This document shows positions 1 through 15,300 of a DNA stretch of 64,000 nucleotides, in pieces. A program made the translations under genes and the position numbers. Position 1 is the first letter of the stretch. The number at the start of each line of letters is the position of its first letter. Source of the DNA: an uncultured Solirubrobacteraceae bacterium. Lineage in GTDB: Bacteria; Actinomycetota; Thermoleophilia; Solirubrobacterales; Solirubrobacteraceae. The notes beneath the pieces were generated by a model that worked only from the letters and a program-made list of their open reading frames with translations, had not been told where the DNA came from and made no database searches. Location: positions 1 to 64,000 of the forward strand of contig CADCVQ010000073.1 of assembly GCA_902806175.1 (NCBI GenBank), written 5' to 3'.

Positions 1-222
1 CAGGAGGCTGATCGCGGGCGCGAACCCGATGTCGGCGAACCGCAGCAGCCGATCGAGGCTCCAGTCCCCGCGCTGCGCTGCTCGCACGAGGGCCTCGGTG
101 AGGGGCTCATAGGCGTCTGTCACGCGTTCAGGTTGAACGCTGCGCCGGACGCGTTCGCCGCCGTCCGTCGGAGGCTCGACGAGAACGATGTATTCAACCT
201 GGTCTCCTGTCGTTTCCGTGAG
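1..222 (-). CDS. Unrecognised protein, truncated by the window edge
   Basis: An open frame runs off the left edge. Its visible part reads like genuine protein (for example VEYIVLVEPP, then TEALVRAAQRGDWSLDRLL and FAPAISLL). I do not recognise the family. The first usable start in frame is a GTG at 121-123, but the 33 codons before it also look coding, so either the start is unusual or this is the surviving part of a gene whose front was lost. The GTG overlaps (as GTGA) the stop of the frame carrying a flavoprotein N-terminus upstream, which looks like a recombination junction rather than a designed overlap. Confidence 0.35.
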
Positions 223-598: not shown

Positions 599-1348
599 TC
601 ATCGTTCCTGCGGCCTACGCGTCCCCGAGCCGGCTGCGAGCCGCTCGCTCGCGATCGTGTCGCGAAATCCTGCGTCCTCTCGCTGCACGGCGCGTGCGCC
701 CTTGATCACCTCTTCGACTTCGGCCGCCGGGATCACGGCCGCGCCCGAGTCGTCGGCGAACACGTACGCCCCGGGCATCACCCCGACGCCGCACAGCACG
801 ACCGGCACGTTCGCCTGATGTGGGGTGACGAGATCGCCGCCCCAGCGCGTAGCCTCGCCGGCGCAGTAGGCGGCGAAGTCGTATTCGCGCAGCTCGGCGA
901 AGTCGCGCAGCCGGCCGTCGCTGAGCAGCCCCGCGAGCCCGTGGTGGTGTAGCCGCGCGAGCTTGGTGCCGCCGCCCATCGAGGCGTCGGTGTGGCCATT
1001 GCTCGCCAGCACCAGGACCTTCCCGCTGGGGGTATCGCCGACCGCCTGGTAGAAGAGCTCGGCAAGGTTGTAGTGCTCGACGTCGAGGTCTGCCGCGCAG
1101 CTTGGGAAGTACGAGATCGTCACGGCGGGCCCGAACAGAACACGGCCGGGGGTCGGGGTCACCAGGTCGAGGATGTGGCAGCGGTGTCGGTGCAGGCGCC
1201 CGACCGCGTCGACGATGTCTGCACACCGCAGGCCCGCGGCGGCCTCCCGCAGCGCGGCCGGTTCGGTGCCCGAGCTCACCGTCGCGGTCGGCAGTCCACC
1301 GCGTGACGCGTCCACGTGTGCACTCGCTGGCGTGGGTTCCCGTCTCAC
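599..1348 (-). CDS. RraA-family protein (HMG/CHA aldolase-like)
   Basis: The 249-residue protein has the RraA / 4-hydroxy-4-methyl-2-oxoglutarate aldolase fold. It shows a central Gly-rich stretch (NGHTDASMGGGTKLARL), the LLSDGRLRDFAEL segment holding the conserved Arg-Asp pair of the active site, and the C-terminal NVPVVLCGVGVMPG...VFADDSGAAVIP block. Family members either cleave alpha-keto acids such as HMG with a divalent metal or, in RraA proper, inhibit RNase E. The retained RD motif favours a lyase, but the substrate is not predictable. The ATG overlaps the stop of the upstream 99-residue ORF by four bases (ATGA), so the two are probably translated together. The first 30 residues are weakly conserved in character and the true start could be slightly downstream. 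Confidence 0.8.
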   Translation of the reverse strand: MRREPTPASAHVDASRGGLPTATVSSGTEPAALREAAAGLRCADIVDAVGRLHRHRCHILDLVTPTPGRVLFGPAVTISYFPSCAADLDVEHYNLAELFYQAVGDTPSGKVLVLASNGHTDASMGGGTKLARLHHHGLAGLLSDGRLRDFAELREYDFAAYCAGEATRWGGDLVTPHQANVPVVLCGVGVMPGAYVFADDSGAAVIPAAEVEEVIKGARAVQREDAGFRDTIASERLAAGSGTRRPQER

Positions 1349-1644
1349 GTCGCTCGTCGCCCCTCAGGCCGGCGCTCGTGGCGCGGTCCGCCGCGTGCAG
1401 CTTCTCGGATTCCTTGCAGGTCGATGCGGTCGACTGCGGCCCACGCGTCGCGTACGTGGTCGAAGGTCCCTAACTCCCGGTCGCCCTGCGGCGTGACCAC
1501 ATGCAGTGTGACCTCCCGGTCGTCGTTGAAGTCGAGAACAAGCTCGGCGTCGACAGTGACCGATCTGGTTCCCGCCCCATCACTCGCCGTCTCATCGCCT
1601 TCGGTTGCCGCGCATCTGGCGGGTACTGCCAGCCGGCGTCCCAT
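1345..1644 (-). CDS. Hypothetical protein, coupled to the RraA-like gene
   Basis: The 99-residue ORF has a convincing middle (AELVLDFNDDREVTLHVVTPQGDRELG followed by TFDHVRDAWAAVDRIDL) and basic, low-complexity ends. There is no signal peptide or membrane segment. I do not recognise a family. Its stop codon overlaps the ATG of the RraA-like gene, so it is probably the first gene of a two-gene unit. An internal start nearer the folded part is possible. Confidence 0.5.
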   Translation of the reverse strand: MGRRLAVPARCAATEGDETASDGAGTRSVTVDAELVLDFNDDREVTLHVVTPQGDRELGTFDHVRDAWAAVDRIDLQGIREAARGGPRHERRPEGRRAT

Positions 1645-1743
1645 TCCTATGTCCTCCGCTTCTTGGTTGCGCTGCCGCGTTGGCCTGGATATCTCGTTTT
1701 GAGTGCACTGTCCCGCTGCCCGGCACCGGGTGAAAGCGTCCCG

Positions 1744-2244
1744 TTAGGCGGTTTCGCGGTGTGGCAGTTTCCAGCCTGGTCGCGGGAAGTGGCAGGGGTA
1801 GCGCTGGAGGTAGTCCTGGTGCTCGGCCTCGGCCACCCAGAACGGGACGGCCTCGCTGATTTCGGTCACCACCGTGCCGGGCCAGAGCCCTGAGGCGTCG
1901 ACGTCGGCGATCGTGTCCGCCGCGATCTGGCGCTGCTCGGGGGTCGTGTAGAAGATCTCAGAGCGGTAGCTGGAGCCGAAGTCGTTTCCCTGGCGGTTCT
2001 TCGTCGTCGGGTCGTGGATCTGGAAGAAGAGCTCGAGGATGTCTCGGTAGGAGATGCGGTCCGGGTCGAACACGATCTCGACGGCCTCCGCGTGACCCGG
2101 ATGGTTTCGATAGGTCGGGTTGTCGTTCTTTCCGCCGGTGTATCCGACCCTGGTTGCGATCACTCCATCACGGCGGCGCAGTAGGTCTTGGACCCCCCAG
2201 AAGCAGCCTCCGGCGAGGATGGCGGTCTCGGCGTTGTCGCTCAT
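1744..2244 (-). CDS. msrA: Peptide-methionine (S)-S-oxide reductase
   Basis: The protein repairs methionine-S-sulfoxide in oxidised proteins. The catalytic motif GGCFWG follows the first few residues ([15 protein letters not shown]), and the MsrA blocks [47 protein letters not shown] and [18 protein letters not shown] are all present. Starting at ATG 2242-2244 gives 166 residues, a normal MsrA length, with AAGGAGA correctly placed upstream. A longer in-frame start at 2304 lacks this. It is the last gene of a minus-strand run behind the Bax-inhibitor-like gene. Its last roughly 20 codons reappear in the chimeric pseudogene at 6759-7011. Confidence 0.95.
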
Positions 2245-2364
2245 CGGGCTCTCCTTGTTGCGAGGTGGAGTTGCGGTCATGCGCGGTTCCTGACGTCTGA
2301 GCATGGTTTCTCCTCGATCTACGTGTACGTGTGAGCGGACTGCGAGTACTCGGAGCTGGGGTCC

Positions 2365-3039
2365 TCACTCGCGGCGGCCGCCGAGCAGGTCGAGCGCGAT
2401 CAGGAAGATGTTGAAGATGTCGAGGAAGATCGCGGCAGCGATCGGGACTGCGGCGTCGGGGGTGCTGCGGCGCAGTCGGTTGAAGTCGAAGATCGTGAAC
2501 GCGGCGAAGATGGCGAGTCCGGCGATGGCGTAGATGAGGTTGCTGTTGGGGATCGAGACGAAGATCGCGACGATGCCGAAGGCGATCAGGCCGAGCAGGG
2601 CCCAGAACAGGGTGCGCGCCCATGAAGAGAGGTCTCTGCGCGTCGCGTAGCCGTATGCGCCGCACCCCGCGACGCACGTTGCGGTGGCTCCGGACGCCTG
2701 CCATAGCGCGGACGGGTCGGTGTTGGCGTAGTCGGCGATGATGGGGGCCACCGCCAGTCCGAGCAGGAGGCCGAGCCCGAACAGGAGCCCGACCGCGAGT
2801 TGCTCGCGGGCCTTGGCGGCGGCGATGTTGAGGCCGACGATGCATGCGAACGCGCCGATGAAGAGCACCAGCCCGGTGGCCCCGCTCAGATCGCGGCCGA
2901 GGTAGGCGCCGAGCGCGGTGAATCCGACCGTGATGGCGACGAAGCCCATGACCTGGCCGAGCAGCGCCCGGGCCTGGTCGTGCGCGATCGGTTGTCCCGG
3001 CAGAGCCGGCTTGTCGGTGGTGGTTGTGAACGCGCTCAT
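2365..3039 (-). CDS. Bax inhibitor-1/YccA family membrane protein
   Basis: This 224-residue polytopic protein has about seven hydrophobic segments and the TMBIM-family features: an early GFVAITVGFTALGAYLG helix, the AIAGLAIFAAFTIFDFNRLRR segment with the conserved Asp, and a C-terminal FLDIFNIFLIALDLLGGRR helix. Bacterial BI-1/YccA proteins are inner-membrane proteins linked to calcium leak or to modulation of the FtsH protease. Which applies here is unknown. I chose ATG 3037-3039 because it lies one base after the stop of the upstream small membrane gene and begins the conserved sequence; an 11-residue longer frame exists. It is likely co-transcribed with that gene and possibly with msrA. 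Confidence 0.9.
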   Translation of the reverse strand: MSAFTTTTDKPALPGQPIAHDQARALLGQVMGFVAITVGFTALGAYLGRDLSGATGLVLFIGAFACIVGLNIAAAKAREQLAVGLLFGLGLLLGLAVAPIIADYANTDPSALWQASGATATCVAGCGAYGYATRRDLSSWARTLFWALLGLIAFGIVAIFVSIPNSNLIYAIAGLAIFAAFTIFDFNRLRRSTPDAAVPIAAAIFLDIFNIFLIALDLLGGRRE

Positions 3040-3040
3040 G

Positions 3041-3292
3041 TCACCACCACCACGGCCACGGAGAAATTGCAAACACGATCAGCAGAGGCCATCCCAGCGC
3101 CATCCACCATGTCGAGTTGAAGCCCCAGAGGTCGGTGCGCCGGCGGGGCTTGGGCCTGAGCTGGTACCAGCGCCGTTCGCGATCGTCGAAGCCTTCGATC
3201 TCGTCTTCACGATCCGGTGGGGCAAGGCGCTGGTCTTCGATGATCCGAGCATCCCCGAGCCGGGCTTGGGGGGCTTCTCGTGTGCGAGACAT
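3041..3292 (-). CDS. Small membrane protein upstream of the BI-1 gene
   Basis: The 83-residue protein has a charged, Arg-rich cytoplasmic-looking N-terminal half and one hydrophobic C-terminal helix (WMALGWPLLIVFAISPWPWWW, very Trp-rich). A strong AAGGAGAA Shine-Dalgarno sequence precedes ATG 3290-3292. Its TGA lies one base before the BI-1 start, implying coupled translation and a possible membrane partner. No family is recognised. Confidence 0.65.
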   Translation of the reverse strand: MSRTREAPQARLGDARIIEDQRLAPPDREDEIEGFDDRERRWYQLRPKPRRRTDLWGFNSTWWMALGWPLLIVFAISPWPWWW

Positions 3293-3322
3293 GAGAGTTC
3301 TCCTTCGAAAGCGGCTTTGCTG

Positions 3323-4279
3323 TTATCCGAACGTGAAGGCGTACGCCTCGGCGCCAGGCGCGGCGAACGTGATTTGCAGCGTCCGGTCGCGGACCGGGTC
3401 GTGCTGGCGCACGAGCTGGTACATGCGAGCGTTGTCGAGCACGCCGTTGCCTTCCTCGTCGACGTCCACGCCGTGTGACGCGCCCGGAGCCTCGCCGTCG
3501 AGGAGCACCCGGAAGGAAATCGGCTCTCGCGCTCGGTGCGCGAGCACGAGATGCGCGTCGCGCGCGTGGAACCCGAAGGCGATGCTGCCGCCGGCCTGGT
3601 CGAGCACGACGTTCTCACGTTCGATCGTCCACTCGCCGGCGAGCGCCCAGTGGTTTGAGCGCAGGCGCTCGGGGAGCACGTAGGCGCGGCGTTCGTCGGG
3701 CGCGACGACGCCGCCTGGTGACGCGACGTGCTCGCCGCGCGAGTAGCCGAGATACGTCTCGGGCGTGCGCAGGTGATCCCAATCGGCCGCCGCCTCCACG
3801 CCGCGACCTTCGACGCAGACCAGCTCACGCTCCACGCCGAGCAGCCGCTGGATGACGCGCTCGGAATCCGCGTAGCGCCCTTCACCGAAGTGGTCATCGC
3901 GGATGATGCCGCCGCGATCGGCGAAGTACAGCGCCGGCCAGTAGCGGTTGGCGAAGGCGCTCCAGATCGCGTAGTCGTTGTCGACCGCAACCGGGTAGTC
4001 GATCGCCCGCTCCTCGGTCGCGCGGCGCACCCCCTCGACGTCGTGCTCGAACGAGAACTCCGGCGTGTGGACGCCGATGACGACCAACCCGTCGTCTCGA
4101 TAGGCCTGCGACCACGCGCGGACGTAGGGCTCCTGGCGCAACCAGTTGATGCACGTCCATGTCCAGAAGTTCACGAGCACGACTTGGCCGCGCAGCTCAG
4201 CGGGACCGAGTGGCTCGGAGTTGAGCCACGCGGTCGCGCCGGCGAACGAGGGCATATGCGCACGCCCGAACAGGGTCAT
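3323..4279 (-). CDS. DipZ-like thioredoxin-fold protein lacking the second active-site Cys
   Basis: The 318-residue protein has an N-terminal redoxin/thioredoxin fold (VVLVNFWTWTCINWLR, then VIGVHTPEFSFEHD and YPVAVDNDYAIWSAFANRYWPALYF) and a C-terminal beta-rich domain like that of DipZ/TlpA-type proteins (ALAGEWTIERENVVLDQAGGSIAFGF). The active site usually reads FWTYTCINCLR. Here the second Cys is Trp (C43-I-N-W46), leaving a monothiol site. There is no obvious signal peptide. ATG 4277-4279 lies two bases after the stop of the upstream epoxide hydrolase with no separate Shine-Dalgarno, so translation is probably coupled; ATG 4253-4255 is an alternative. A decayed second copy follows the second epoxide hydrolase. 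Confidence 0.85.
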   Translation of the reverse strand: MTLFGRAHMPSFAGATAWLNSEPLGPAELRGQVVLVNFWTWTCINWLRQEPYVRAWSQAYRDDGLVVIGVHTPEFSFEHDVEGVRRATEERAIDYPVAVDNDYAIWSAFANRYWPALYFADRGGIIRDDHFGEGRYADSERVIQRLLGVERELVCVEGRGVEAAADWDHLRTPETYLGYSRGEHVASPGGVVAPDERRAYVLPERLRSNHWALAGEWTIERENVVLDQAGGSIAFGFHARDAHLVLAHRAREPISFRVLLDGEAPGASHGVDVDEEGNGVLDNARMYQLVRQHDPVRDRTLQITFAAPGAEAYAFTFG

Positions 4280-4281
4280 TG

Positions 4282-5529
4282 CTAGCGCAGCGATCGGAAC
4301 GTCGCGCGGACGTCTTCAGAGAGCAACTGCGGCTGTTCCCAGGCGGCGAAGTGCCCGCCCCTGTCGTGCTCGTTGTAGTAGACGAGATTGGGGTACGCCT
4401 GCTCAGCCCAGCTGCGCGGAACCCGGTAGACCTCGTCCGCGAAGGTGCTCACGCCGACCGGGGTCTTGACGCCCTTGACCGAGATGGGGGGGAGCTTGCT
4501 CTCCCAGTACAGCCTCGCCGAGGACACCCCGGTGTTGGTCAGCCAGAAGAGCGTGATGTTGTCCAGCAGGTCGTCGCGCGTGAGGTCGCTCGGCCTCTCG
4601 AGACGCTCCTCGAGGACCTGCTGAACCAGCCCGGGCTGCCCGCTCCCGTCGCCGTGGTCGAGCATGAACGCCGCGAGATCGACGGGTGAGTCCGCCAGCC
4701 CGTAGAGCGTCTGCGGGCGCGTGCTCATGACGAGGCCGTACGCCGCGTGCGTCGCAAAGAAGGTGCGCAGCTGCTCGTAGGTGCTCAGCGCCTCGCCGGA
4801 AAGGCCAACCGGCGCCGGAGCGCCGATGAAGGACGCGGTGAAGAGGTCCGGCGGAATCACGCCGCCCAGGTTGGTGTGGATGCCGATCAGCTCCGGCGGC
4901 GCAGGCTCAGCTGCCGCTGGGTCGGTGCGGCCGCCGGCCATCACGTCGGCGACGATCGCCCCCCAGTCGCCGCCCTGCGCCGCGAACCGCTCGTAGCCCA
5001 GGCGCTTCATGAGCTCGACGTAGGCCTTCCCGATGCGCACGGGATCCCAGCCCGTCGTGGTCGGCTTGCCGGAGAAGCCGTAGCCGGGCATCGAGGGGAT
5101 CACGACATGGAAGGCGTCCGACGCGTTCGCGCCGTGCGCGGTGGGATCGGTGAGCGGGCCGATGAGCTTCAGCTGCTCGACGATCGACCCCGGCCATCCG
5201 TGGCAGACGACCAACGGAAGCGCGTCCTCCTGCTTGGAGCGAACGTGAACGAAGTGGATGTCCAGCCCGTCGATCTCGGTGATGAAGTTCGGAACGTCGT
5301 TCAGCCGCGCCTCGCACTTGCGCCAGTCGTACTCCGTCAGCCAGTAGCGAGCAAGGTCCTGCATGAGCGCGAGCTGCACGCCCTGCGAGTCATCCTCGAC
5401 GGTCTCCTTCTCGGGCCAGCGCGTCGCAGCGATACGGGCGCGCAGGTCCTCGAGGTCCGCCGCGGGAGCGTCGATCGTGAACGGGCGGATCGTTGTATCG
5501 CCCGCTGACTTCTCGGCCACGATGGCCAT
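4282..5529 (-). CDS. Epoxide hydrolase-family alpha/beta hydrolase (copy 1)
   Basis: The 415-residue protein opens with an epoxide-hydrolase N-terminal (EHN) region (IRPFTIDAPAADLEDLRARI) and continues as an alpha/beta hydrolase: oxyanion motif HGWPG (110-114), nucleophile Asp188 in GGDWG, cap Tyr residues, and catalytic His near residue 393 in GGHFAAWEQP. This matches soluble and microsomal-type epoxide hydrolases that open epoxides to diols. The real substrate is unknown. A GGAGGGA Shine-Dalgarno precedes the ATG. It is closely similar throughout to the copy at 7012-8256. A 47-bp block 40 bases upstream is shared by both copies and is probably a promoter or operator. Confidence 0.9.
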   Translation of the reverse strand: MAIVAEKSAGDTTIRPFTIDAPAADLEDLRARIAATRWPEKETVEDDSQGVQLALMQDLARYWLTEYDWRKCEARLNDVPNFITEIDGLDIHFVHVRSKQEDALPLVVCHGWPGSIVEQLKLIGPLTDPTAHGANASDAFHVVIPSMPGYGFSGKPTTTGWDPVRIGKAYVELMKRLGYERFAAQGGDWGAIVADVMAGGRTDPAAAEPAPPELIGIHTNLGGVIPPDLFTASFIGAPAPVGLSGEALSTYEQLRTFFATHAAYGLVMSTRPQTLYGLADSPVDLAAFMLDHGDGSGQPGLVQQVLEERLERPSDLTRDDLLDNITLFWLTNTGVSSARLYWESKLPPISVKGVKTPVGVSTFADEVYRVPRSWAEQAYPNLVYYNEHDRGGHFAAWEQPQLLSEDVRATFRSLR

Positions 5530-5570: not shown

Positions 5571-5617
5571 ACCCTGCTCGTCTCGTCCGCTCGTCGCCCC
5601 CGTACAGACCCCTGGGT
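5571..5617 (-). promoter_or_regulatory. Conserved 47-bp upstream block, copy A
   Basis: This block ends 41 bases before the epoxide hydrolase 1 start. It matches the block at 8294-8340 at 43 of 47 positions, while the leader between block and start codon is poorly conserved. Read toward the gene, it begins ACCCAGGGGTC and ends GACGAGACGAGCAGGGT. Selective conservation of this segment suggests a promoter or regulator site, with the LuxR protein at 8668-11457 as the obvious candidate regulator. Confidence 0.55.
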
Positions 5618-6044
5618 TGCTTACGGGGTTGTCGCTGGTTATGCCTTCACGTGGCCGCTGGGGAGCGATGCGGCCAGATAGAGATCGTCGGTGACGCCGT
5701 CGCTGCAGATGGTCGCGCGCACGGTCGCGCCGTCCTGCCGGCCGCGCCGCGACCTCGCCAACCCGTTGACCCAGTGACCGCCCGTGTCGCACCAGCGAGT
5801 AACGCGGGCGCGACCGCAGATCAGGAAGTGCACCTTGATGCCGTGCAGTCCTGACACCTCCCGCAACGCGACGCCGAAGCCCGAATGGAGGCAAGCGTTT
5901 CGTGGATCGTTCGACACACGCCGCGATGCTGGTTGCAGCGTCTCGCTCGAGTGGAACAGCGACCCGGCTGAGACGGAGATCGATCGTCGGCGACAACGGG
6001 GCCTCGAGATCGCCCGTGTCTCCGGCCAGGACGCCGGTGAAGTG
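5618..6044. other. 427-bp interval without a supported gene
   Basis: No frame here has both a start and a recognisable domain. On the minus strand a frame ending at 5639 reads plausibly at its end (VTDDLYLAASLPSGHVKA), but upstream it runs into sequence antisense to the oxidoreductase gene. It could be a gene remnant. The right part is the downstream flank of the F420-reductase-like gene. Confidence 0.4.
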
Positions 6045-6668
6045 CTACGCCAGCAGCTTGAGGGTGCTCGTGAAGTTGGTGCCGAGCGGCTGTTGGATCG
6101 CCATATGCAGATAGCCGAGCGCCTCGAGCTCACGGGCGCGCTTGAGCGGGCCAGCGTCGACCGGCCGCAGTCCCGCGTCCGAGACGAGCTGGCTGACGAT
6201 CGCCTTGGCGTCCTCGTCGTCAGCCGCGATCAGGACGTCGAGTGGCTGGCCGGCGACCTCGCCGGCGCCGAGAGTCCCGGCGAACGTGGTGTTGAAGGCC
6301 TTGACCACCCTGGCACCGGGGGCCTTTGCGGCGATGTCCTGGGCGGCCGATCCGGCTTGCAGCTTCAGGGGCTCGAAGGTGTCGACGTCGATCGGGTTTG
6401 TGATGTCGACAACGATCTTGCCGTCCAGCTCGTCGCCGTAGCGACCGAGGACGTCGTCGAGCGCGCCATACCAGACCGCCAGCACGACGACGTCGCCACT
6501 CAGCGGATCCCCCGCCTGAGCAGCGCGCACGTCGCCTGACAGCTCGCCGGCGAGCGCCCGCGCCTTGGCAGTCTCCGTGCCCAGCAGCGTGACCGAATGG
6601 CCGCCGGCGAGTGCCCTGGTTGCAATGCCGCGGCCCATGTTGCCGGTGCCGATAATCGTGATCTTCAC
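6045..6668 (-). CDS. NADPH-dependent F420 reductase-like oxidoreductase
   Basis: The 207-residue protein starts with a Rossmann motif (ITIIGTGNMGRGIATRAL), followed by the NADP-oxidoreductase/F420-dependent family signatures VVLAVWYGALDDVL, KIVVDITNP and ARVVKAFNTTFAGTL. Members transfer hydride between NADP(H) and coenzyme F420 or a related acceptor. At this length the protein is a complete single-domain member, but F420 use cannot be proved from sequence. A GGAGGA Shine-Dalgarno precedes ATG 6666-6668. It sits between the two epoxide hydrolase copies and may be part of the same regulon, although no copy of the 47-bp block is seen directly upstream. Confidence 0.85.
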   Translation of the reverse strand: MKITIIGTGNMGRGIATRALAGGHSVTLLGTETAKARALAGELSGDVRAAQAGDPLSGDVVVLAVWYGALDDVLGRYGDELDGKIVVDITNPIDVDTFEPLKLQAGSAAQDIAAKAPGARVVKAFNTTFAGTLGAGEVAGQPLDVLIAADDEDAKAIVSQLVSDAGLRPVDAGPLKRARELEALGYLHMAIQQPLGTNFTSTLKLLA

Positions 6669-6758
6669 GGTGTCCTCCTAGGTCCTTCGTGTGTCAAACA
6701 CCCGATGACTCGGCGTCGTGCGTCCAAGCGCGCAAAGGGCAGCCGCGGGCACTGTCGC

Positions 6759-7011
6759 TCAGCGACGGACAGCAGTCCGAGCGTCCGGTTGGGCGACGGT
6801 TTCGCGGTCTGGCAGTTTCCAGTCTGGCCGCGGGAAGTGGCAGGTGTAACCGTTTGGGTATGGCTCCTGGCGCAGCCAGTTGATGCACGTCAGCGTCCAG
6901 AAGCTCACGACGATGACATGACCGCCCAGCTCGGCGGGGCCGAGCGGCTCGAGTTGAGCCACCCGGTTCGCCCGTCGAGTGAGGGCAAGTGCACGCGAGT
7001 TGACGCGTCAC
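6759..7011 (-). pseudogene. Chimeric remnant: redoxin N-terminus fused to the MsrA C-terminus
   Basis: Directly downstream of epoxide hydrolase 2, this segment matches the start of the redoxin at 3323-4279 ([41 protein letters not shown]). It then switches at the shared Tyr to the MsrA tail ([17 protein letters not shown]). One base is lost between WLNS and LEPLGP, breaking the frame. A GTG at 6960-6962 could still express about 67 residues. The junction shows that a redoxin/epoxide-hydrolase block was duplicated and that most of the redoxin, together with the msrA front, was deleted. It keeps the unusual CINW site. Confidence 0.8.
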
Positions 7012-8256
7012 CTAGCGAAGCGAACGGAGCCCCGCGCGCAGTTCGGATGCGTACAGCTCCGGCTGCTCCCAGGCGGCGAAGTGCCCACCCTTGTCGACCT
7101 CGTTGAAGTGGATGAGGTTGGGGTATGCCTGCTGCGCCCAGCTGCGCGGCGCCTGGTAGACCTCGTCGGGGAAGACGCTCACGGCGACCGGAACGGTGAC
7201 GTTCCGGACGGCGACGTAGCTGCCCTTGTCCTGGTGCAGCCACTCCCAGTACAGCCGGGCGGCGGAGATCCCCGTGTTCGTCAGCCAGAACAGCGTGATG
7301 TTGTCGAGGACGTCGTCGCGGGTCAGGCCTTCCTGGGCGCCATCGACGAAGACGCGAGAGATCAGCTCCAGGCTCATCGCGTCGTGGTCGAGCATGTACG
7401 CCGCCAGGTCGATCGGTGAGTCGGACAGTCCGTACAGCGTCTGTGGCCGCGACCCCATCTCGGCCCCGTACGCCACGTGCTGATAGAGGAAGGCCAGCTG
7501 CTCTGTCGTGCGTCGTTCGTCGTCTGAGAGATCGGACGGCAGCGGCCTGCCGGTCTGGATCGCCCTGTCGATCTCGGGCGGAACCACCCCCGGAAAGTTG
7601 GTGTGGATCCCGAGCAGCTCCGGGGGAGCCGGCTCAACGGCGTCCGGATCGTCCCGGCCGCCGGCCATCACCTCGACGACGACCCCGCCCCAGTCGCCGC
7701 CCGCCGCCACGAACTGCGCGTAGCCGAGGCGCTTCATCAGCTCGAACCACGCACCCGCGATGCGGATCGGGCCCCACCCGGTCGTGGACGGCTTGCCCGA
7801 GAACCCGTAACCCGGCATGTTTGGGATCACCACGTGGAAGGCGTCCGACGCGCTGCCGCCATGCGCCGTCGGATCGGTAAGCCGATCGACGAGCTTCATC
7901 TGCTCGACGAACGAACCGGGCCATCCGTGCGTGACGATCACCGGCAGCGCATCCTCGTGCTTGGAACGCACGTGAACGAAGTGGATGTCCAGCCCATCGA
8001 TCTCGGTGATGAACTGTGGGACTGCGTTCAGCCGCGCCTCGCACTTGCGCCAGTCGTACTCCGTCAGCCAATAGCGCGCGAGTGCCTGCATCGTCGCCAG
8101 CGGCACGCCCTGCGAGAAGTCGTCGACGGTCTCTTTCTCGGGCCAGCGCGTCGCAGCGATACGGGCGCGCAGGTCCTCGAGGTCCGCCGCGGGGGTCTCG
8201 ATCCTGAACTGGCGGATGGCGGTGTTGTCCGCTGGGGTTTGGACCGTGGCAGCCAT
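7012..8256 (-). CDS. Epoxide hydrolase-family alpha/beta hydrolase (copy 2)
   Basis: This 414-residue paralogue of the enzyme at 4282-5529 keeps the EHN region, HGWPG, nucleophile Asp in GGDWGG, PNMPGYGFSGKP and the catalytic His in KGGHFAAWEQPE. Differences cluster in the cap region, suggesting altered substrate range. AAGGAGGA precedes the ATG. The conserved 47-bp block lies 37 bases upstream, and a small membrane ORF and the divergent LuxR regulator follow beyond it. The duplication is old enough for the paralogues to differ throughout but not for either to have lost its catalytic residues. Confidence 0.9.
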   Translation of the reverse strand: MAATVQTPADNTAIRQFRIETPAADLEDLRARIAATRWPEKETVDDFSQGVPLATMQALARYWLTEYDWRKCEARLNAVPQFITEIDGLDIHFVHVRSKHEDALPVIVTHGWPGSFVEQMKLVDRLTDPTAHGGSASDAFHVVIPNMPGYGFSGKPSTTGWGPIRIAGAWFELMKRLGYAQFVAAGGDWGGVVVEVMAGGRDDPDAVEPAPPELLGIHTNFPGVVPPEIDRAIQTGRPLPSDLSDDERRTTEQLAFLYQHVAYGAEMGSRPQTLYGLSDSPIDLAAYMLDHDAMSLELISRVFVDGAQEGLTRDDVLDNITLFWLTNTGISAARLYWEWLHQDKGSYVAVRNVTVPVAVSVFPDEVYQAPRSWAQQAYPNLIHFNEVDKGGHFAAWEQPELYASELRAGLRSLR

Positions 8257-8293
8257 GTGGTCCTCCTTGGTTTGGGGTTTGGTGACGCCACGG

Positions 8294-8340
8294 ACCCTGC
8301 TCGTCTCGTCCCCACGTCGCCCCCGTAGTGACCCCTGGGT
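8294..8340 (-). promoter_or_regulatory. Conserved 47-bp upstream block, copy B
   Basis: Identical to the block at 5571-5617 at 43 of 47 bases and at nearly the same distance from its start codon (37 against 41 bases). It falls between the small membrane ORF at 8356-8487 and epoxide hydrolase 2, so the hydrolase probably has its own promoter here. Confidence 0.55.
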
Positions 8341-8355
8341 CTGCTCCCTGGGTTC

Positions 8356-8487
8356 TCAGAGAACGGCCCAGGTGACGAGCGATCCGGTGCAGACCAGCGC
8401 GGCCACCACGAACCGGCGAAAGGGAGACGACCGGTCGTTCGCTTCGCGGTCGCGGTCATGGTCCTGGGACTGGGCTTCCGTGGTCAT
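8356..8487 (-). CDS. 43-residue single-pass membrane protein
   Basis: A short ORF with a strong GAAGGAGA Shine-Dalgarno six bases before ATG 8485-8487. The N-terminal half is highly charged (QDHDRDREANDRSS) and the C-terminal half is one hydrophobic helix (FVVAALVCTGSLVTWAVL). No family is recognised. It is transcribed divergently from the LuxR regulator, with a variant of the conserved upstream block in between. Confidence 0.55.
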   Translation of the reverse strand: MTTEAQSQDHDRDREANDRSSPFRRFVVAALVCTGSLVTWAVL

Positions 8488-8544
8488 GTCGTCTCCTTCG
8501 GAAAGACGGTCGCCACACGGGCGTGACGCGGGTTGCGTGCGCCC

Positions 8545-8585
8545 AAGACTGTCCGTCTCGTCGGCGGGTCGCACCCCTGTGAGCC
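8545..8585. promoter_or_regulatory. Shortened variant of the conserved upstream block, copy C
   Basis: The divergent region between the small membrane ORF and the LuxR gene carries CGTCTCGTC, a six-base gap, TCGC and then ACCCCTG. This is the layout of copies A and B but without the ten bases that separate TCGC from ACCCCTG in them, which equals one helical turn. This suggests that the same regulator binds here, possibly for autoregulation. Confidence 0.4.
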
Positions 8586-8667: not shown

Positions 8668-11457
8668 ATGCAGCCCAGGCTGCGCGGACGGCGACAAGAG
8701 TGCGAGGTCCTCGATGACCTGCTCGCGAGCGTGCGAACGGGGCGGAGTCGGGTGCTCATTCTTCGCGGCGAGGCGGGAATCGGCAAGACAGCGCTGCTTG
8801 AGCACATCGTGGGAAGTGCGTCTGGTTTGCGGGTCGCGCGGGCGGCCGGCGTCGAGTCCGAGATGGAGCTCCCCCATGCCGCGCTTCATCAGCTCTGCGC
8901 GCCGTTCGCTGATCAGATCGACAGTTTGCCCGGTCCGCAACGCGACGCGCTCAGCACCGCGTTCGGACGCCACGGAGGCGATGCGCCGAGCCCGTTTCTC
9001 GTCGGCTTGGCCGTCCTCGGCCTGCTCTCCGATGTGGCAGCGGAGAAACCACTGCTGTTGATCGTCGACGACGCCCAGTGGCTTGACGAGGCCTCGTCGC
9101 AGACGCTCGCGTTCGTGGCCCGCCGCCTCGGCGCTGAATCCGTCGCCATGGTGGTCGCGATGCGCGACCGTGCCGGAAAGGACGACTTCGGTCGGCTCGA
9201 CGAGCTGGTCGTCCGCGGCCTCGGGGAGCGCGACGCGTGTGCCCTGCTCGAAACGGTTCTGACCGGTCCGCTCGACGACGGCGTCCGAGACCGCGTCGTT
9301 GCCGAGACGCGCGGCAACCCACTGGCGTTGCTCGAGCTGCCGCGAGGGCTGACGCCGGGCGAGATGGCCGGCGGCTTCGGCATTCCCTACGCGTCGTCCC
9401 TCGCCGGCCGCATCGAGGAGAGCTTCCGCCGCCGACTCGCGCCACTCCCGCCCTCCACGAGGACGCTGCTGCTTGTCGCTTCCGCAGAGCCGGTCGGCGA
9501 CCCAGTGCCGGTATGGCGCGCTGCGGCCGTGCTCGGGGTCGAGCCGGCGGCGCGGGTCGCTGCGGCGGAGCTGGTCGAGTTCGGCGGACAGGTGCGGTTC
9601 CGACATCCGCTCGTCCGATCTGCGGTCTACCGCGCGGCATCGTCGGCGGACCGCGAGCGCGCGCACCGCGCGCTGGCCGAGGCGACGAACCCCGACGTAG
9701 ATCCCGACCGGCGCGCCTGGCATCGCGCGCACGCGACCCCGGCATTCGACGAGGACGTCGCCGCCGAGCTCGACCGCTCGGCCGGCCGCGCACAGGGCCG
9801 CGGCGGCCTGGCCGCGGCGGCGGCATTTCTCGAGCGCGCGGCGGAGTTGACACCCGAGCCCGCGCGCCGCGCCCGCCGTGCGCTCGCCGCGGCACAGAGC
9901 AAGCAGCGCGCCGGCGCGCCGGATGCAGCACTGCGGCTCCTCGCTCTTGCTGAGGCCGGACCGCTCGATGAGCTCGATCAGGCCCGGGCGGAGCTGCTTC
10001 GGGCCCAGGTCACGTTTGCGGTCACCCGCGGCGGTGACGCACCCCAGCTGCTGCTCGAGGCCGCCAAGCGACTGGAACCCCTGGACGGGGCGCTCGCGCG
10101 CGAGACGTACCTGGACGCACTTGCGGCAGCGCTGTTCGCCGACCAACTCACCCGTGGCAGCGGCGTGCGCGAGATCGCCGAGGCCGTGCTCGCCGCAGAG
10201 TGGGGCGAGTCGTCGCGGCGCACACAGCGCGCCTTCGACCTCCTGCTCGAGGGGATCGCTGTCGTCACGATCGATGGCTACGCCGCCGGTGCGCAGACCC
10301 TCAAGCACGCACTCCGCGCGTTTCGAGACGAACCGATGACCGACGAGGACGCGCTGCGCTGGCTCTGGCTCGCTTGCCGCGCCGCGCGCGCGCTCGGCGA
10401 CGAGGTGAGTTGGGACGAGCTCAGCGGGCGCCAGGCACGTCTCGCGCGCGAGGCCGGCGAGCTGTCGATCCTGCCGATCGCGCTGGCCGAGCGCTTCAGC
10501 CTGCAGCTCTATCTCGGCGACTACGCGGCGGCCGAGGCCCTGGTCGTGGAGACCGACGCCGTCGCGCAGGCGACCGGCAGCCGCCAAGCGCCTCAGGGCG
10601 CGATCCTGGCGGCCTTGCGCGGTGAGGAGGCGGAGGCCACCGCGCTGATCGACGCCGCGCGGCACGACGTGGTGGATCGCGGCGAGGGGCTCTGGCTCGT
10701 CTCCACCGAGTGGGCCAGCGCCGTTCTCTTTAACGGCCTCGGCCGCTACGCGGAGGCGCTGGCCGCCGCGGAACAGGCCGTGAACCACCCGAACGAGCTG
10801 GGTGTGACGACGTGGGTGCTCCCGGAGTTCATCGAGGCAGCCGCACGGAGCGGCCACCCGGAACGCGCGGCAGGCACGCTGCGACGGCTCCACGAGATCA
10901 GCAGTGCCGCCGGGACGGACTGGGCGCTGGGGGTCGAGGCGCGCTCCCGTGCGTTGCTCAACGACGGTGACCCTGCCGAGAGCCTGTACCGCGAGGCGAT
11001 CACACGGCTGACCCGCACACGGGTGCGTACCGCACTCGCGCGTGCACACCTGGTGTACGGGGAGTGGTTGCGACGCGAACGCCGGCGGGGCGACGCGCGC
11101 GATCAGCTGCGAATCGCGCACAGCAGGTATGTAGACATAGGCATGAACGGGTTCGCCGAACGCGCCCGCCGCGAGCTGATGGCCACGGGCGAGACCGTTC
11201 GCAAGCGCACCCCCGACACGCGCGACAACCTCACCGCGCAGGAGTTGCAGATCGCCAGGCTCGCCGCCGAGGGCAGCACGAACGTCGAGATCGGCGCACA
11301 GCTCTTCATCAGCCCGCGCACGGTCGAATGGCACCTGGGCGGTGTGTTCACGAAGCTCGGAATCCATTCGCGCAAAGAGCTCAGCGCGGCAGCGCTCGAC
11401 CCGCGAAACCGGGCACCTGCGACGAACGCGCCCGTCGGGACCTCGGCCGACGCATAG
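8668..11457 (+). CDS. AAA-domain LuxR-family (MalT/LAL-type) transcriptional regulator
   Basis: The 929-residue protein has an N-terminal AAA ATPase (Walker A GEAGIGKT at 34-41, Walker B LLLIVDDAQWLDE), a long helical TPR-like middle, and a C-terminal LuxR helix-turn-helix (LTAQELQIARLAAEGSTN...SPRTVEWHLGGVFTKLG). Such LAL/MalT-type proteins are ATP-dependent activators responding to small ligands. I start at ATG 8668 because TTGGAGA sits eight bases upstream and the conserved RGRRQECEVLDDLL region begins there; an earlier GTG at 8533 would add 45 residues unlike the family. The stop is nine bases from the lactate permease start, so the two are probably co-transcribed. It is the candidate regulator for the epoxide hydrolase genes. 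Confidence 0.9.
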   Translation: MQPRLRGRRQECEVLDDLLASVRTGRSRVLILRGEAGIGKTALLEHIVGSASGLRVARAAGVESEMELPHAALHQLCAPFADQIDSLPGPQRDALSTAFGRHGGDAPSPFLVGLAVLGLLSDVAAEKPLLLIVDDAQWLDEASSQTLAFVARRLGAESVAMVVAMRDRAGKDDFGRLDELVVRGLGERDACALLETVLTGPLDDGVRDRVVAETRGNPLALLELPRGLTPGEMAGGFGIPYASSLAGRIEESFRRRLAPLPPSTRTLLLVASAEPVGDPVPVWRAAAVLGVEPAARVAAAELVEFGGQVRFRHPLVRSAVYRAASSADRERAHRALAEATNPDVDPDRRAWHRAHATPAFDEDVAAELDRSAGRAQGRGGLAAAAAFLERAAELTPEPARRARRALAAAQSKQRAGAPDAALRLLALAEAGPLDELDQARAELLRAQVTFAVTRGGDAPQLLLEAAKRLEPLDGALARETYLDALAAALFADQLTRGSGVREIAEAVLAAEWGESSRRTQRAFDLLLEGIAVVTIDGYAAGAQTLKHALRAFRDEPMTDEDALRWLWLACRAARALGDEVSWDELSGRQARLAREAGELSILPIALAERFSLQLYLGDYAAAEALVVETDAVAQATGSRQAPQGAILAALRGEEAEATALIDAARHDVVDRGEGLWLVSTEWASAVLFNGLGRYAEALAAAEQAVNHPNELGVTTWVLPEFIEAAARSGHPERAAGTLRRLHEISSAAGTDWALGVEARSRALLNDGDPAESLYREAITRLTRTRVRTALARAHLVYGEWLRRERRRGDARDQLRIAHSRYVDIGMNGFAERARRELMATGETVRKRTPDTRDNLTAQELQIARLAAEGSTNVEIGAQLFISPRTVEWHLGGVFTKLGIHSRKELSAAALDPRNRAPATNAPVGTSADA

Positions 11458-13035: not shown

Positions 13036-13514
13036 GCCCGCGCCACTCGACCCCGCGGGCGGACCCACGGCCTGACACGGGTGCGACCGCCGGAGAGGAA
13101 GCGCAATCTCAAGGCGTGGACGACTGCTCCCGTAGGAAACGCGAACCAGTTCCGACAATCTCGCCCGCGCGATCACCGTCTCACACTCCCGAGACCGCCA
13201 CCAGGAGCCTCGGCGGCCGATTGTTTCCGCACTATCGCACGTCGATTGCGGGACGAAGGCGGGCACCCTTCAGTCGCCGAAATCGCGGCCTGAGGCGGCG
13301 ACCGCCGGCACGCCCGAAGCGTCTCGGTAGACGCACCAGCACGGGATCTGCGCTGGCCAGTGCGTCTTCTTTTGCCTGCGAGCGGCAGCCCGACGCGCCG
13401 CCGGGCCGCGCGGACGGCGACGCTTGCGCATCGCGCGAGAAGCAGCGCTGTTGCCCCGGGCGCGGGCTATCGCTCGTGCGCCTCGGAGCGACGGTGGCCT
13501 GCGAGACTTGAGAG
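13036..13514. other. 479-bp interval without a supported gene; contains a repeat copy
   Basis: No open frame with recognisable protein character. The right end (13376-13443) carries the first copy of an imperfect repeat that also lies just after the next gene, including the element GACGCTTGCGC-ATC-GCGCGAGAAGC at 13419-13443. Composition is less codon-like than the flanking genes. Confidence 0.5.
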
Positions 13515-13905
13515 GTGCCGATTGACGCCGTGAAGGCCCAAGCGCTGGCGACGCGGGAGGTCGAGCGCATCGCCGCCGAGTCGGGACTGCACGACCTCGT
13601 CCTCATCTCTGACAAGACGCAAGAAGTATCGGAAGGCTGGGTCTTCTTCTGGGATAGCGAAAAGCATCTGACCACCGGCGACGTTCGTGATGCGTTGGGC
13701 GGCGGCGGGCCAATCTTCGTCGACCGCAGCGACGGCTCGTTGGCAATGGTGTGGTCGGGCGAAAGCTGGCAAACCGCGCTCGCGCGCTATCGCGCAGGCG
13801 GCTCGATTCGAAGGTTTTGACGCGAGCTGCTCCGTTCGCCCTGGAGCGGCAGCCGAGCCCGCCGCCCCTGCGCGGACGTCGACGCTTGCGGTTCGCGCGC
13901 GAAGG
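13376..13905. repeat. Imperfect direct repeats flanking the YrhB-like gene
   Basis: Copy 1 (about 13376-13443) and copy 2 (about 13841-13905) share GAGCGGCAGCC, then CGCCGCC, CGCGGACG and CGACGCTTGCG-N2-TCGCGCG-N-GAAG in the same order and spacing, apart from a two-base gap. The 13515-13820 gene lies exactly between them. The layout fits a gene inserted into, or bounded by, a dispersed element. Confidence 0.5.
13515..13820 (+). CDS. YrhB/Imm35-type domain protein
   Basis: The 101-residue protein matches the YrhB (Imm35-like) family pattern: an N-terminal helix (ALATREVERIAAESG), then LVLISDKTQEVSEGWVFFWDSEKHL, then GGGGPIFVDRSDGSLAMVWSG and a short C-terminal helix. Members include putative immunity proteins of polymorphic toxins, but most are orphans and no toxin is visible nearby. 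The start is a GTG with AGAGG-like sequence upstream. It is bounded by direct repeats, with an IS110 remnant downstream, so acquisition by transfer is plausible. Confidence 0.6.
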   Translation: MPIDAVKAQALATREVERIAAESGLHDLVLISDKTQEVSEGWVFFWDSEKHLTTGDVRDALGGGGPIFVDRSDGSLAMVWSGESWQTALARYRAGGSIRRF

Positions 13906-13911
13906 TTTCTC

Positions 13912-15001
13912 CTATGTCAAGCAGGGCATGGGTGCGGGTGCGGTGGTGACGATGTAGCGGTCTTCGTGTCGCGGCTCGGCGGCGCTGAACAGGATGTGGT
14001 GGAAGCGGCGTGCGAGGTGGCGTTGAGGCAGCGGATGGCTTCGCGTTTGGTCTTGCCTTCGGCTTGTTTGCGTGCGAGGTAGGCCTTCGTCGCGGGGTCG
14101 TAGCGCGCGCGGGTGATCGCGATGATGTGCAGGGCGTGGTTGAGCTGGCGATCGCCGCCGCGGTGCAACCGGTGGCGATCGCGTTCGCCTGAGGAGCACT
14201 TGATCGGTGCGACGCCGGCGTGGCGAGCGAAGCTTGCGTCGTTGCGGAATCGTTCGGCGCCGGCGGTACGGCCGATCAGGATCGATGCGGTCAGCGGGCC
14301 GCAGCCCGTCTCGGCGAGCAGCTGCGGGCGGTGCGTCTTGACCAGCTGGCGTAGTTCGAGCTGCAGCGCGTTGATCTGGCGAGTGAGGCGCCGAATGTGC
14401 GCGACTTCCTCGCGCGCGATCCGCACCCGCGCGCAGCGGGTCATGCCTCGCATCGTCGGTCGATGCGATCGAGCTGCCCGGAGCGGTCCAGCGAGCGTGG
14501 CTTCAGCGACGCCTCAAGGTCGGGGCACAGCGCCAGCAGATGCCAGCGAACACGATTTTGCATGCGGGTGCGATCAGCGACCAAGTCGCTGCGATGGTCA
14601 GACAACAGGCGGATCTGCATCGCCCGCTCGTCCAGATAGGCGGCCGGGAAGGCGTCAACACCATCCTTGACGACCGCCCTCGCGATCGCGAGCGCGTCGA
14701 TCTCATCAGACTTTCCCGGCGTGCGTTCGCCGCGCCTGGAGGCGCCCATCCGATGCGGCGCCACCCTGACGACGCGTTCGCCGGCGGCGATCAGCGCCTG
14801 CTCAAGACGGCGTGAGACATGCCGGCAGTCCTCGATCGCCCACACCCGCTCGTCGTCGAGCTCGCGCGCCCACCGCACCGCGGCCAGATGACCGGCCTCG
14901 TCGGCGGTGATTTCGCGTCCGCCACGCACGCGGCCGGTGCCCGCGTCGACGGCACCCAGCGCGTGCGTGCGCTTGTGCGTGTCCGTCCCGATCACGATCA
15001 T
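13912..15001 (-). mobile_element. IS110-family transposase, interrupted by two frameshifts
   Basis: The front half (14441-15001) is a DEDD transposase domain (IGTDTHKRTHALGAVD; AIEDCRHVSRRL; GKSDEIDALAIARAV). The back half (13917-14453, other frame) has the transposase_20 domain (LAETGCGPLTASILIG, FARHAGVAPIKCSSG, HRLHRGGDRQLNHALH). A single missing base near 14445 separates the halves. A second near 14025 displaces the usual C-terminal RHLARRFHHILF. The element is therefore probably inactive unless these are assembly errors. IS110 elements lack standard terminal inverted repeats, so exact ends cannot be set; noncoding ends should extend to the right of 15001. Confidence 0.85.
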
Positions 15002-15300
15002 CTACAACCGTCCCTTCGTTGGATTGGCGACGAAGCGGACCGTCGGCGGACAGCTCTCACTTGGGGCGGTGCCACGCTCCTATCAAGTCACGCCGAAGGT
15101 CCTCGGGCGGCGACGGGCGACAGAACCTTTGCGAGCCAGACCAACCGGTCGACAAGCGCTCTGAGGGTCAGCCCGCCGCCAGCCCGAGAACCAACCCGAT
15201 CCATCGGACGTCATCGCCCGACAGCCGCGACGATGACAGTGACAGCGCTCTTCCGCGAGCGCTCCTCCCAGCGGAAGCAGCAGCAACGCGGGCAGGACCG
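15002..15300 (-). ncRNA. Probable noncoding end of the IS110 element (possible bridge RNA region)
   Basis: No gene is supported in these 300 bases upstream of the transposase start. In IS110-group elements the noncoding end upstream of the transposase encodes a structured bridge (seek) RNA that guides recombination. I see GC-rich blocks able to pair but did not fold the sequence. The call rests on position and family knowledge only. Confidence 0.25.

Follow-up and report, generated by a model that had tools for sequence, protein, structure and literature searches.

A predicted LAL-type activator promoter shared by two epoxide hydrolase genes of an uncultured Solirubrobacteraceae bacterium

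The stretch of DNA analysed here (hereafter the window: 64,000 nt of contig CADCVQ010000073.1, from an uncultured Solirubrobacteraceae bacterium) carries two epoxide hydrolase genes, EHN1 and EHN2, and, reading the opposite way, the gene of a large ATP-binding LuxR-type (LAL) regulator. A block of 47 bp stands upstream of both hydrolase genes, and a third, degenerate copy lies next to a small open reading frame (ORF) between EHN2 and the LAL gene (Table 1). The two hydrolases share 68% of their protein and 77% of their DNA sequence, and their membership of the EHN family is evident from matches to the EHN domain (PF06441, 1.3e-39 and 2.2e-40) and to Abhydrolase_1 (1.5e-10 and 3.4e-10). Hydrolase activity is predicted for both: D188 and H392 (EHN2 numbering) are invariant across eight aligned proteins, and the GGD and GGH/GDH motifs, which we take to have a catalytic role, are kept in the same alignment. 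The regulator has the size expected of LAL proteins (about 800-1000 aa), an ATPase domain (AAA_16, 5.3e-20, residues 49-205 of a 974-aa reading) and a LuxR-type helix-turn-helix (GerE, 1.1e-15, residues 898-950 of the same reading) with the recognition helix SPRTVEWHL; DNA binding and ATP-dependent activation are predicted accordingly from its domains. LAL proteins seem to be numerous in this genome (assembly of 4.12 Mb in 183 contigs, 97% complete), with 80-83 candidates in a loose screen, five of which pass E 1e-30.

Table 1. Positions in the window of the genes, predicted promoter elements and small ORF discussed in the text.
Feature	Position	Strand	Remarks
Bax1-I frame	2365-3072		downstream of EHN1, after the thioredoxin-like and 83-aa frames
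Thioredoxin-like gene (Thioredoxin_10)	3323-4279		starts 2 bases past the EHN1 stop
EHN1 epoxide hydrolase gene (EHN + alpha/beta hydrolase)	4282-5529	minus	ATG ends at 5529
EHN1 -10-like hexamer CAGGGT	5571-5576	minus	17 nt past the operator
EHN1 predicted operator, two boxes CCCAGGGG-TCTG-TACGGGGGCGA	5594-5616	minus	over the inferred -35; matches the pattern with 0 mismatches
EHN2 epoxide hydrolase gene	7012-8256	minus	start codon ends at 8256
EHN2 -10-like hexamer CAGGGT	8294-8299	minus	A/T spacing as in relatives
EHN2 predicted operator CCCAGGGG-TCAC-TACGGGGGCGA	8317-8339	minus	from the cross-species alignment; matches the pattern with 0 mismatches
43-codon ORF	8356-8487	minus	a single membrane-spanning segment (by eye); preceded by AAGGAG, a good ribosome-binding sequence
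Third, degenerate copy CACAGGGGTGCGA - 17 nt - CAGTCT	8546-8581	minus	toward the small ORF and EHN2, away from the LAL gene
LAL regulator gene	8668-11457	plus	929 aa; GGAG just before ATG 8668

The two copies of the block, at 5571-5617 and 8294-8340, agree without gaps at 43 of 47 bases and lie 41 nt (EHN1) and 37 nt (EHN2) before the start codons, which bears out the agreement and the nearly equal distances described in the sequence-only reading. The leader between block and gene has diverged, as was also claimed, with 29 of 41 aligned columns identical (Fisher test against the block, P=0.012). A degenerate pattern of the block is matched twice in the window, against 0.00 matches expected from shuffles. 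The genome-wide search that had been proposed, made with the 101-bp block region as query, returned only the two EHN copies, and a pattern of operator plus -10 found both blocks in the whole assembly with 0 mismatches and eight other places with 2-3 (reversed control, 6). A chance origin of the block is rejected by the pattern count and by this assembly-wide search. No larger regulon was found in the window genome, as five further matches stood against 13 in the control and the eight further ones just mentioned against 6.

The evidence that carries the case comes from other species. Public genomes were scanned with an alignment of EHN proteins, and the best 80 of at least 569 loci were inspected. 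A LAL gene whose product is 52-55% identical to that of the window stands beside the EHN gene in Streptomyces sp. SID13031, S. spiralis, Streptomyces sp. Tue6028, Streptomyces sp. F001, S. fuscichromogenes, Actinacidiphila glaucinigra and Catellatospora paridis, and in A. rubida a LAL fragment (57%) adjoins EHN at a contig end. The remaining loci among these 80, from many phyla, showed no such LAL beside EHN and at most a helix-turn-helix resemblance. Adjacent LAL-EHN pairs were also found in genomes G090 and G307, and in G079 a single contig carries both genes, at distances of 3 and 14 kb. Taken together, the EHN-linked LAL proteins are 50-56% identical to the window LAL (tblastn segments) across classes, with two fragments at 57-59%; the four other LAL proteins found in the window genome reach 30-32%.

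The upstream regions of EHN genes near a LAL gene hold the window element or a variant of it, recognised by eye; L011, one of two EHN genes on the G079 contig, has none. In the predicted element, the operator with its two boxes, CCCNGGGG-N4-NNCNGGGGCGA, is separated by 17 nt from a hexamer NANNNT that resembles a -10 (CAGGGT in the window), and because this hexamer forms the far end of the 47-bp block, the block corresponds to operator, spacer and -10. Alignment of 12 sites on the proximal box gives the common sequence CCC-N-GGGG and, after a short gap, C-N-GGGG(C/T)GA; the last part served as the anchor, so that the conservation of the proximal box is by construction. The columns -22 to -16, which belong to the second, upstream box, are conserved as well. 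Downstream, A occurs at +19 in 11 of 12 sites and T at +23 in 10 of 12, and neither column was used in aligning. The combination of A+19 and T+23 is present at 13 of 16 EHN-linked sites, compared with 4 at the next-best offset, one base further on, and these columns played no part in picking the sites; the proportion becomes 19/22 with six added sites, most of which were found with a matrix of which the -10 is part. The boxes end close to the inferred -35, and their distance to the -10 is constant, which is the arrangement of a LuxR/LAL-type -35 operator. At five loci of Streptomyces and Catellatospora (L064, L067, L076, L082 and L106), three or four CCCNGGGG boxes at steps of 12-13 bp, in place of two, seem by eye to precede EHN.

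The specificity of the element was assessed with a two-box grammar on 105 regions upstream of EHN. Of the 16 LAL-linked regions, 11 scored 15-17 out of 17, as did 1 of the 89 others (P=2e-10); a region counts as LAL-linked if its stretch also holds a LAL gene (for L011 and L019, at a distance of 3 and 14 kb). The sole high scorer among the 89, L133, comes from a genome with a LAL-linked site elsewhere. This result is descriptive, since the grammar was written after seeing these loci. A leave-window-out matrix built from 13 foreign sites ranks the EHN1 block first and the EHN2 block second in the 64 kb, with scores of 18.8 and 16.4 and the next match at 12.4; the test is not wholly independent, because the choice of the foreign sites, made by eye, was guided by knowledge of the window element.

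Taking into account that the layout recurs, that the +19/+23 spacing is fixed and that the matrix ranks the blocks 1 and 2, it is likely that the 47-bp block constitutes an entire core promoter of the activator-dependent kind, which the window LAL would bind so as to activate both EHN copies. The proposal of a LAL-type activator site at both EHN genes, already made in the sequence-only reading, is well supported by the recurrence of the element at EHN genes near LAL genes of 50-56% identity.

Several results weigh against this assignment. Among the 16 LAL-linked EHN regions, five stay at or below 14 in the grammar, a variant of the element being present at three of them (L063, L006 and L019), and in two other EHN copies of G307 (L129 and L131) no element was found. 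A calibrated profile of 10 foreign sites places the window blocks at ranks 1 and 4 in the window (E 0.04 and 0.17), and genome-wide this profile, too unspecific for the purpose, does not list them. Of 151 genomes, 8 contain an exact match to the pattern as it occurs in the relatives (control, 2); three of these matches are known EHN sites, and around the other five neither EHN nor LAL lies within the 9-11 kb fetched. Seven stretches without such a LAL, five of them fetched for an exact match, gave one matrix match of at least 16. Finally, the likeness of the two window copies is less telling than it appears. The claim that the block is conserved beyond neutral sequence holds against all fourfold-degenerate positions of the EHN pair (104/163 identical; binomial P=1.5e-5, Fisher P=1e-4) and becomes marginal (binomial P=0.04, Fisher P=0.17) when the first 60 codons serve as the reference. 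These codons are unusually alike, with 21 of 26 fourfold sites identical, and one 60-nt stretch of the 5' coding region has 58 of 60 bases identical, perhaps through gene conversion. Owing to this high local rate, the comparison of the two copies is not decisive by itself and the cross-species footprint carries the case.

In the proposed mechanism, the LAL protein, charged with ATP and its ligand, would bind the tandem GGGG boxes over the -35, beside RNA polymerase, and the polymerase would take the NANNNT hexamer 17 nt downstream as its -10, with the LAL protein compensating for the poor match. The two copies of the block, kept through duplication or conversion of EHN, would place both hydrolases under the window LAL. 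The thioredoxin-like, 83-aa and Bax1-I genes are probably under the same control; since these frames closely follow EHN1, one block may drive several stress genes. From the gene content it can be guessed that the signal is most likely an epoxide, another electrophile or an oxidised lipid. A lactate-permease gene starts 9 nt past the LAL stop in the window. Lactate, named earlier as a candidate for reporter tests, finds no support as the signal, because no homologue of lactate permease (LctP) turned up in the loci searched. We thus infer LAL binding, an operon and the signal, and likewise activation rather than repression, the latter because the site overlaps the -35 and because of the habit of the family.

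Repression is an unlikely alternative. Here the LAL protein, bound over the inferred -35, would block the polymerase until an epoxide releases it; the position of the site would allow this, and some LuxR-family proteins do repress, SCO6993 being an example in the parts of the literature available. The boxes, however, extend upstream of the -35 and not over the -10 or +1, and the -10 is poor (CAGGGT, without the leading T). Poor -10 hexamers are usual in activator-dependent promoters.

Somewhat less probable still is a promoter of an alternative sigma factor, with GGGGCGA as the -35 and NANNNT as the -10, the linkage to LAL being incidental. GGGGCGA does stand at -35 spacing from the -10-like hexamer, its own columns being conserved by construction as part of the anchor. 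Against this reading, conservation reaches the second, upstream box (columns -22 to -16), the additional boxes of Streptomyces, by eye, resemble an activator array, and elevated scores occur almost exclusively at LAL-linked EHN genes and, within the window genome, at two positions. That the block is a functionless trace of recent duplication, or of gene conversion from the 5' coding region, is very improbable and is rejected on the cross-species footprint, the same element being found in other genera and the leader being less alike than the block, even though the 5' coding likeness noted above leaves the two-copy test weak.

Returning to the activator promoter, its third copy was described in the sequence-only reading as an autoregulatory site in the LuxR/small-ORF divergent region from which one helical turn had been removed. 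This region does align to the block with a 10-base gap, at a score of 17.1 that was reached by 7 of 2000 shuffles and by none of 287 other window segments (12-63.8 kb); its spacer is as long as that of the blocks and likewise contains GACGAGACG, and its -10 has the same A and T. The description as a removed turn is probably wrong, since GGGGTGCGA pairs better, by eye, with the proximal than with the distal box. A full operator is rejected: the grammar gives 13/17, a level that, for three other regions, 7-10 out of every 100 shuffled 400-bp sequences also attained, and the best matrix score is 3.5, compared with 16-29 for accepted sites. On balance, we lean slightly towards a real but weaker site. 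Control of the LAL gene by this copy is rather doubtful; the matching spacer and -10 speak for it, and against it stand the low matrix score, a reading direction away from LAL and, on the plus strand toward the LAL gene, a best grammar score of 10 of 17. No homologue of the 43-codon ORF was found in the loci searched. At L199, a 48-codon ORF (9299-9445, minus) with one membrane stretch, by eye, stands immediately behind a LAL-type site and ahead of Bax1-I; it resembles the window ORF in layout, without detectable sequence homology.

The search was extended to further LAL loci. Members of the LAL subfamily were detected in 24 of 151 genomes, including that of the window (threshold E 1e-120, five candidates scored per genome), and 40 LAL stretches in two sets, which hold 46 of the 59 matches listed and were not used in training the matrix, were scored. 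Matches of at least 16 occur in four of them, L199, L196 and L209 in the first set and L222 in the second, and in none of the reversed controls. All four sites lie about 50-80 nt before a start codon: that of L199 is followed by the short membrane ORF and then Bax1-I, that of L196 by a 528-aa protein without a Pfam match, that of L209 by a SLAC1 gene and that of L222 by a glyoxalase-fold gene. At L196, L209 and L222, as in five Streptomyces/Actinacidiphila pairs, the site is in the region divergent from LAL and reads away from it. In L038, which like L037 is a stretch from before these two sets, a match of 16.4 precedes a DUF302 gene. Weaker matches (13-15) precede DUF308 and DUF5983-like frames and, across L037 and L038, lipoxygenase (L037) and thioredoxin-reductase-like genes; the reversed first set (272 kb) also yields three matches of at least 13. 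The L037 lipoxygenase is of the bacterial type (13293-15128; PF00305, 1.2e-14) and begins 51 nt behind the start of the weak LAL-type site, and the L037 contig holds several LAL genes plus an EHN gene. At L198 (10181-10330), an exact site is followed by a frame that stops after 16 codons, with flavodoxin/WrbA-like DNA beyond (by eye); the frame seems to be a broken gene or an assembly error.

The presence of a site appears to be related to one residue of the recognition helix. Readable LAL loci that bear a site, namely the window, Streptomyces, Catellatospora, L037, L038, L196, L199, L209 and L222, have W (TVEWHL), and most LAL loci without a site have Y (TVEYHL); L216 and L229 have neither. 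In the 40 stretches, scores of at least 16 occur at 4 of 8 W loci vs 0 of 30 Y loci (P=0.0009), or 1 of 30 on counting L198, which has Y together with an exact site of longer spacing (P=0.004). The idea arose on the first set, and the second set alone (W 1/5 vs Y 0/13, P=0.28) gives no significant difference, which weakens it. On a quick LAL tree the W/Y label needs six changes, at least three of them forced by well supported branches, so that the association does not stem from one clade and yet is not strict. Collectively, these findings are suggestive of a W helix that accompanies this operator type, with exceptions. A motif search for a Y-group operator before 36 LAL genes outside the W loci gave coding-like patterns only (12.8 vs 11.2 bits in mononucleotide shuffles), and this candidate was dropped. 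Tentatively, the subfamily may be a switch for electrophiles or oxidised lipids, in which W in the helix goes with a promoter of the CCAGGG-N-ACGGGCGCGA type, acquired more than once on the LAL tree. Depending on the species, its regulon would include genes of epoxide hydrolases and of Bax-inhibitor-like, SLAC1 and glyoxalase-fold proteins; weaker sites would add those of lipoxygenases and thioredoxin-reductase-like proteins.

Among known systems, MalT of Escherichia coli, the LAL prototype, resembles the window LAL in joining an ATPase domain to a C-terminal LuxR helix-turn-helix; against the MalT model, however, only the helix-turn-helix of the window protein matches, far below the cut-off. 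The signal and the box sequence of MalT differ from those proposed here. According to the accessible text of one report, MalT binds direct repeats of a decanucleotide, and TpdR of Rhodococcus jostii TMP1 is a LAL activator at the tetramethylpyrazine promoter (PMC6099782). TpdR is comparable in activating an actinobacterial catabolic operon from two repeats, the nearer of which covers the -35, and differs in its 15-nt repeats, 13-nt spacing and response to pyrazine; EHN is not mentioned in that text (PMC6099782). As far as the available parts of two further reports go, MilO is a LuxR-family activator that acts on tandem direct repeats in the milA promoter region, unlike the present element in their sequence (TGTC-N3-CGGT) and in lying 142 bp before the transcription start and hence, presumably, not over the -35 (PMC11784345), and PimR, a SARP-LAL protein, recognises tandem repeats about 11 bp apart before pimM, in contrast through its SARP domain, without a LuxR helix-turn-helix and at an operator clear of the -35 (PMC5930380). 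In the portion of the open-access literature consulted, no LAL operator at EHN genes was described, and only a small number of LAL and LuxR operators were met there, the majority of them in antibiotic clusters. Tandem repeats close to the -35 are known for the LAL activators MalT and TpdR; the operator and regulon predicted here for this LAL subfamily were not found described in that portion. The target site of a LAL protein would be predictable from sequence, with the same design near the same kind of regulator in other soil actinobacteria. Since the predicted operator has an exact spacing and is linked with a detoxification enzyme, and perhaps with a helix residue, the binding code, targets and inducer are testable in culturable Streptomyces.

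Some further features of the neighbourhood were observed. RraA-like, MsrA, Bax1-I, thioredoxin-like and EHN genes form a group at 599-5529 that has the look of a portable cassette for oxidative or electrophile stress. The same RraA/MsrA/Bax1-I/thioredoxin-like group occurs in equal order, together with two EHN genes, in the relative G098 (L041), where no operator match was found at the EHN genes by the two-box score despite the conserved gene order, and part of it lies near EHN in L063, L068, L131 and L133. Downstream of the lactate permease, two frames on the minus strand (14441-15001 and 13917-14453) resemble, by eye, pieces of one IS110-like transposase, and the region 13917-15001 is probably a broken insertion element.

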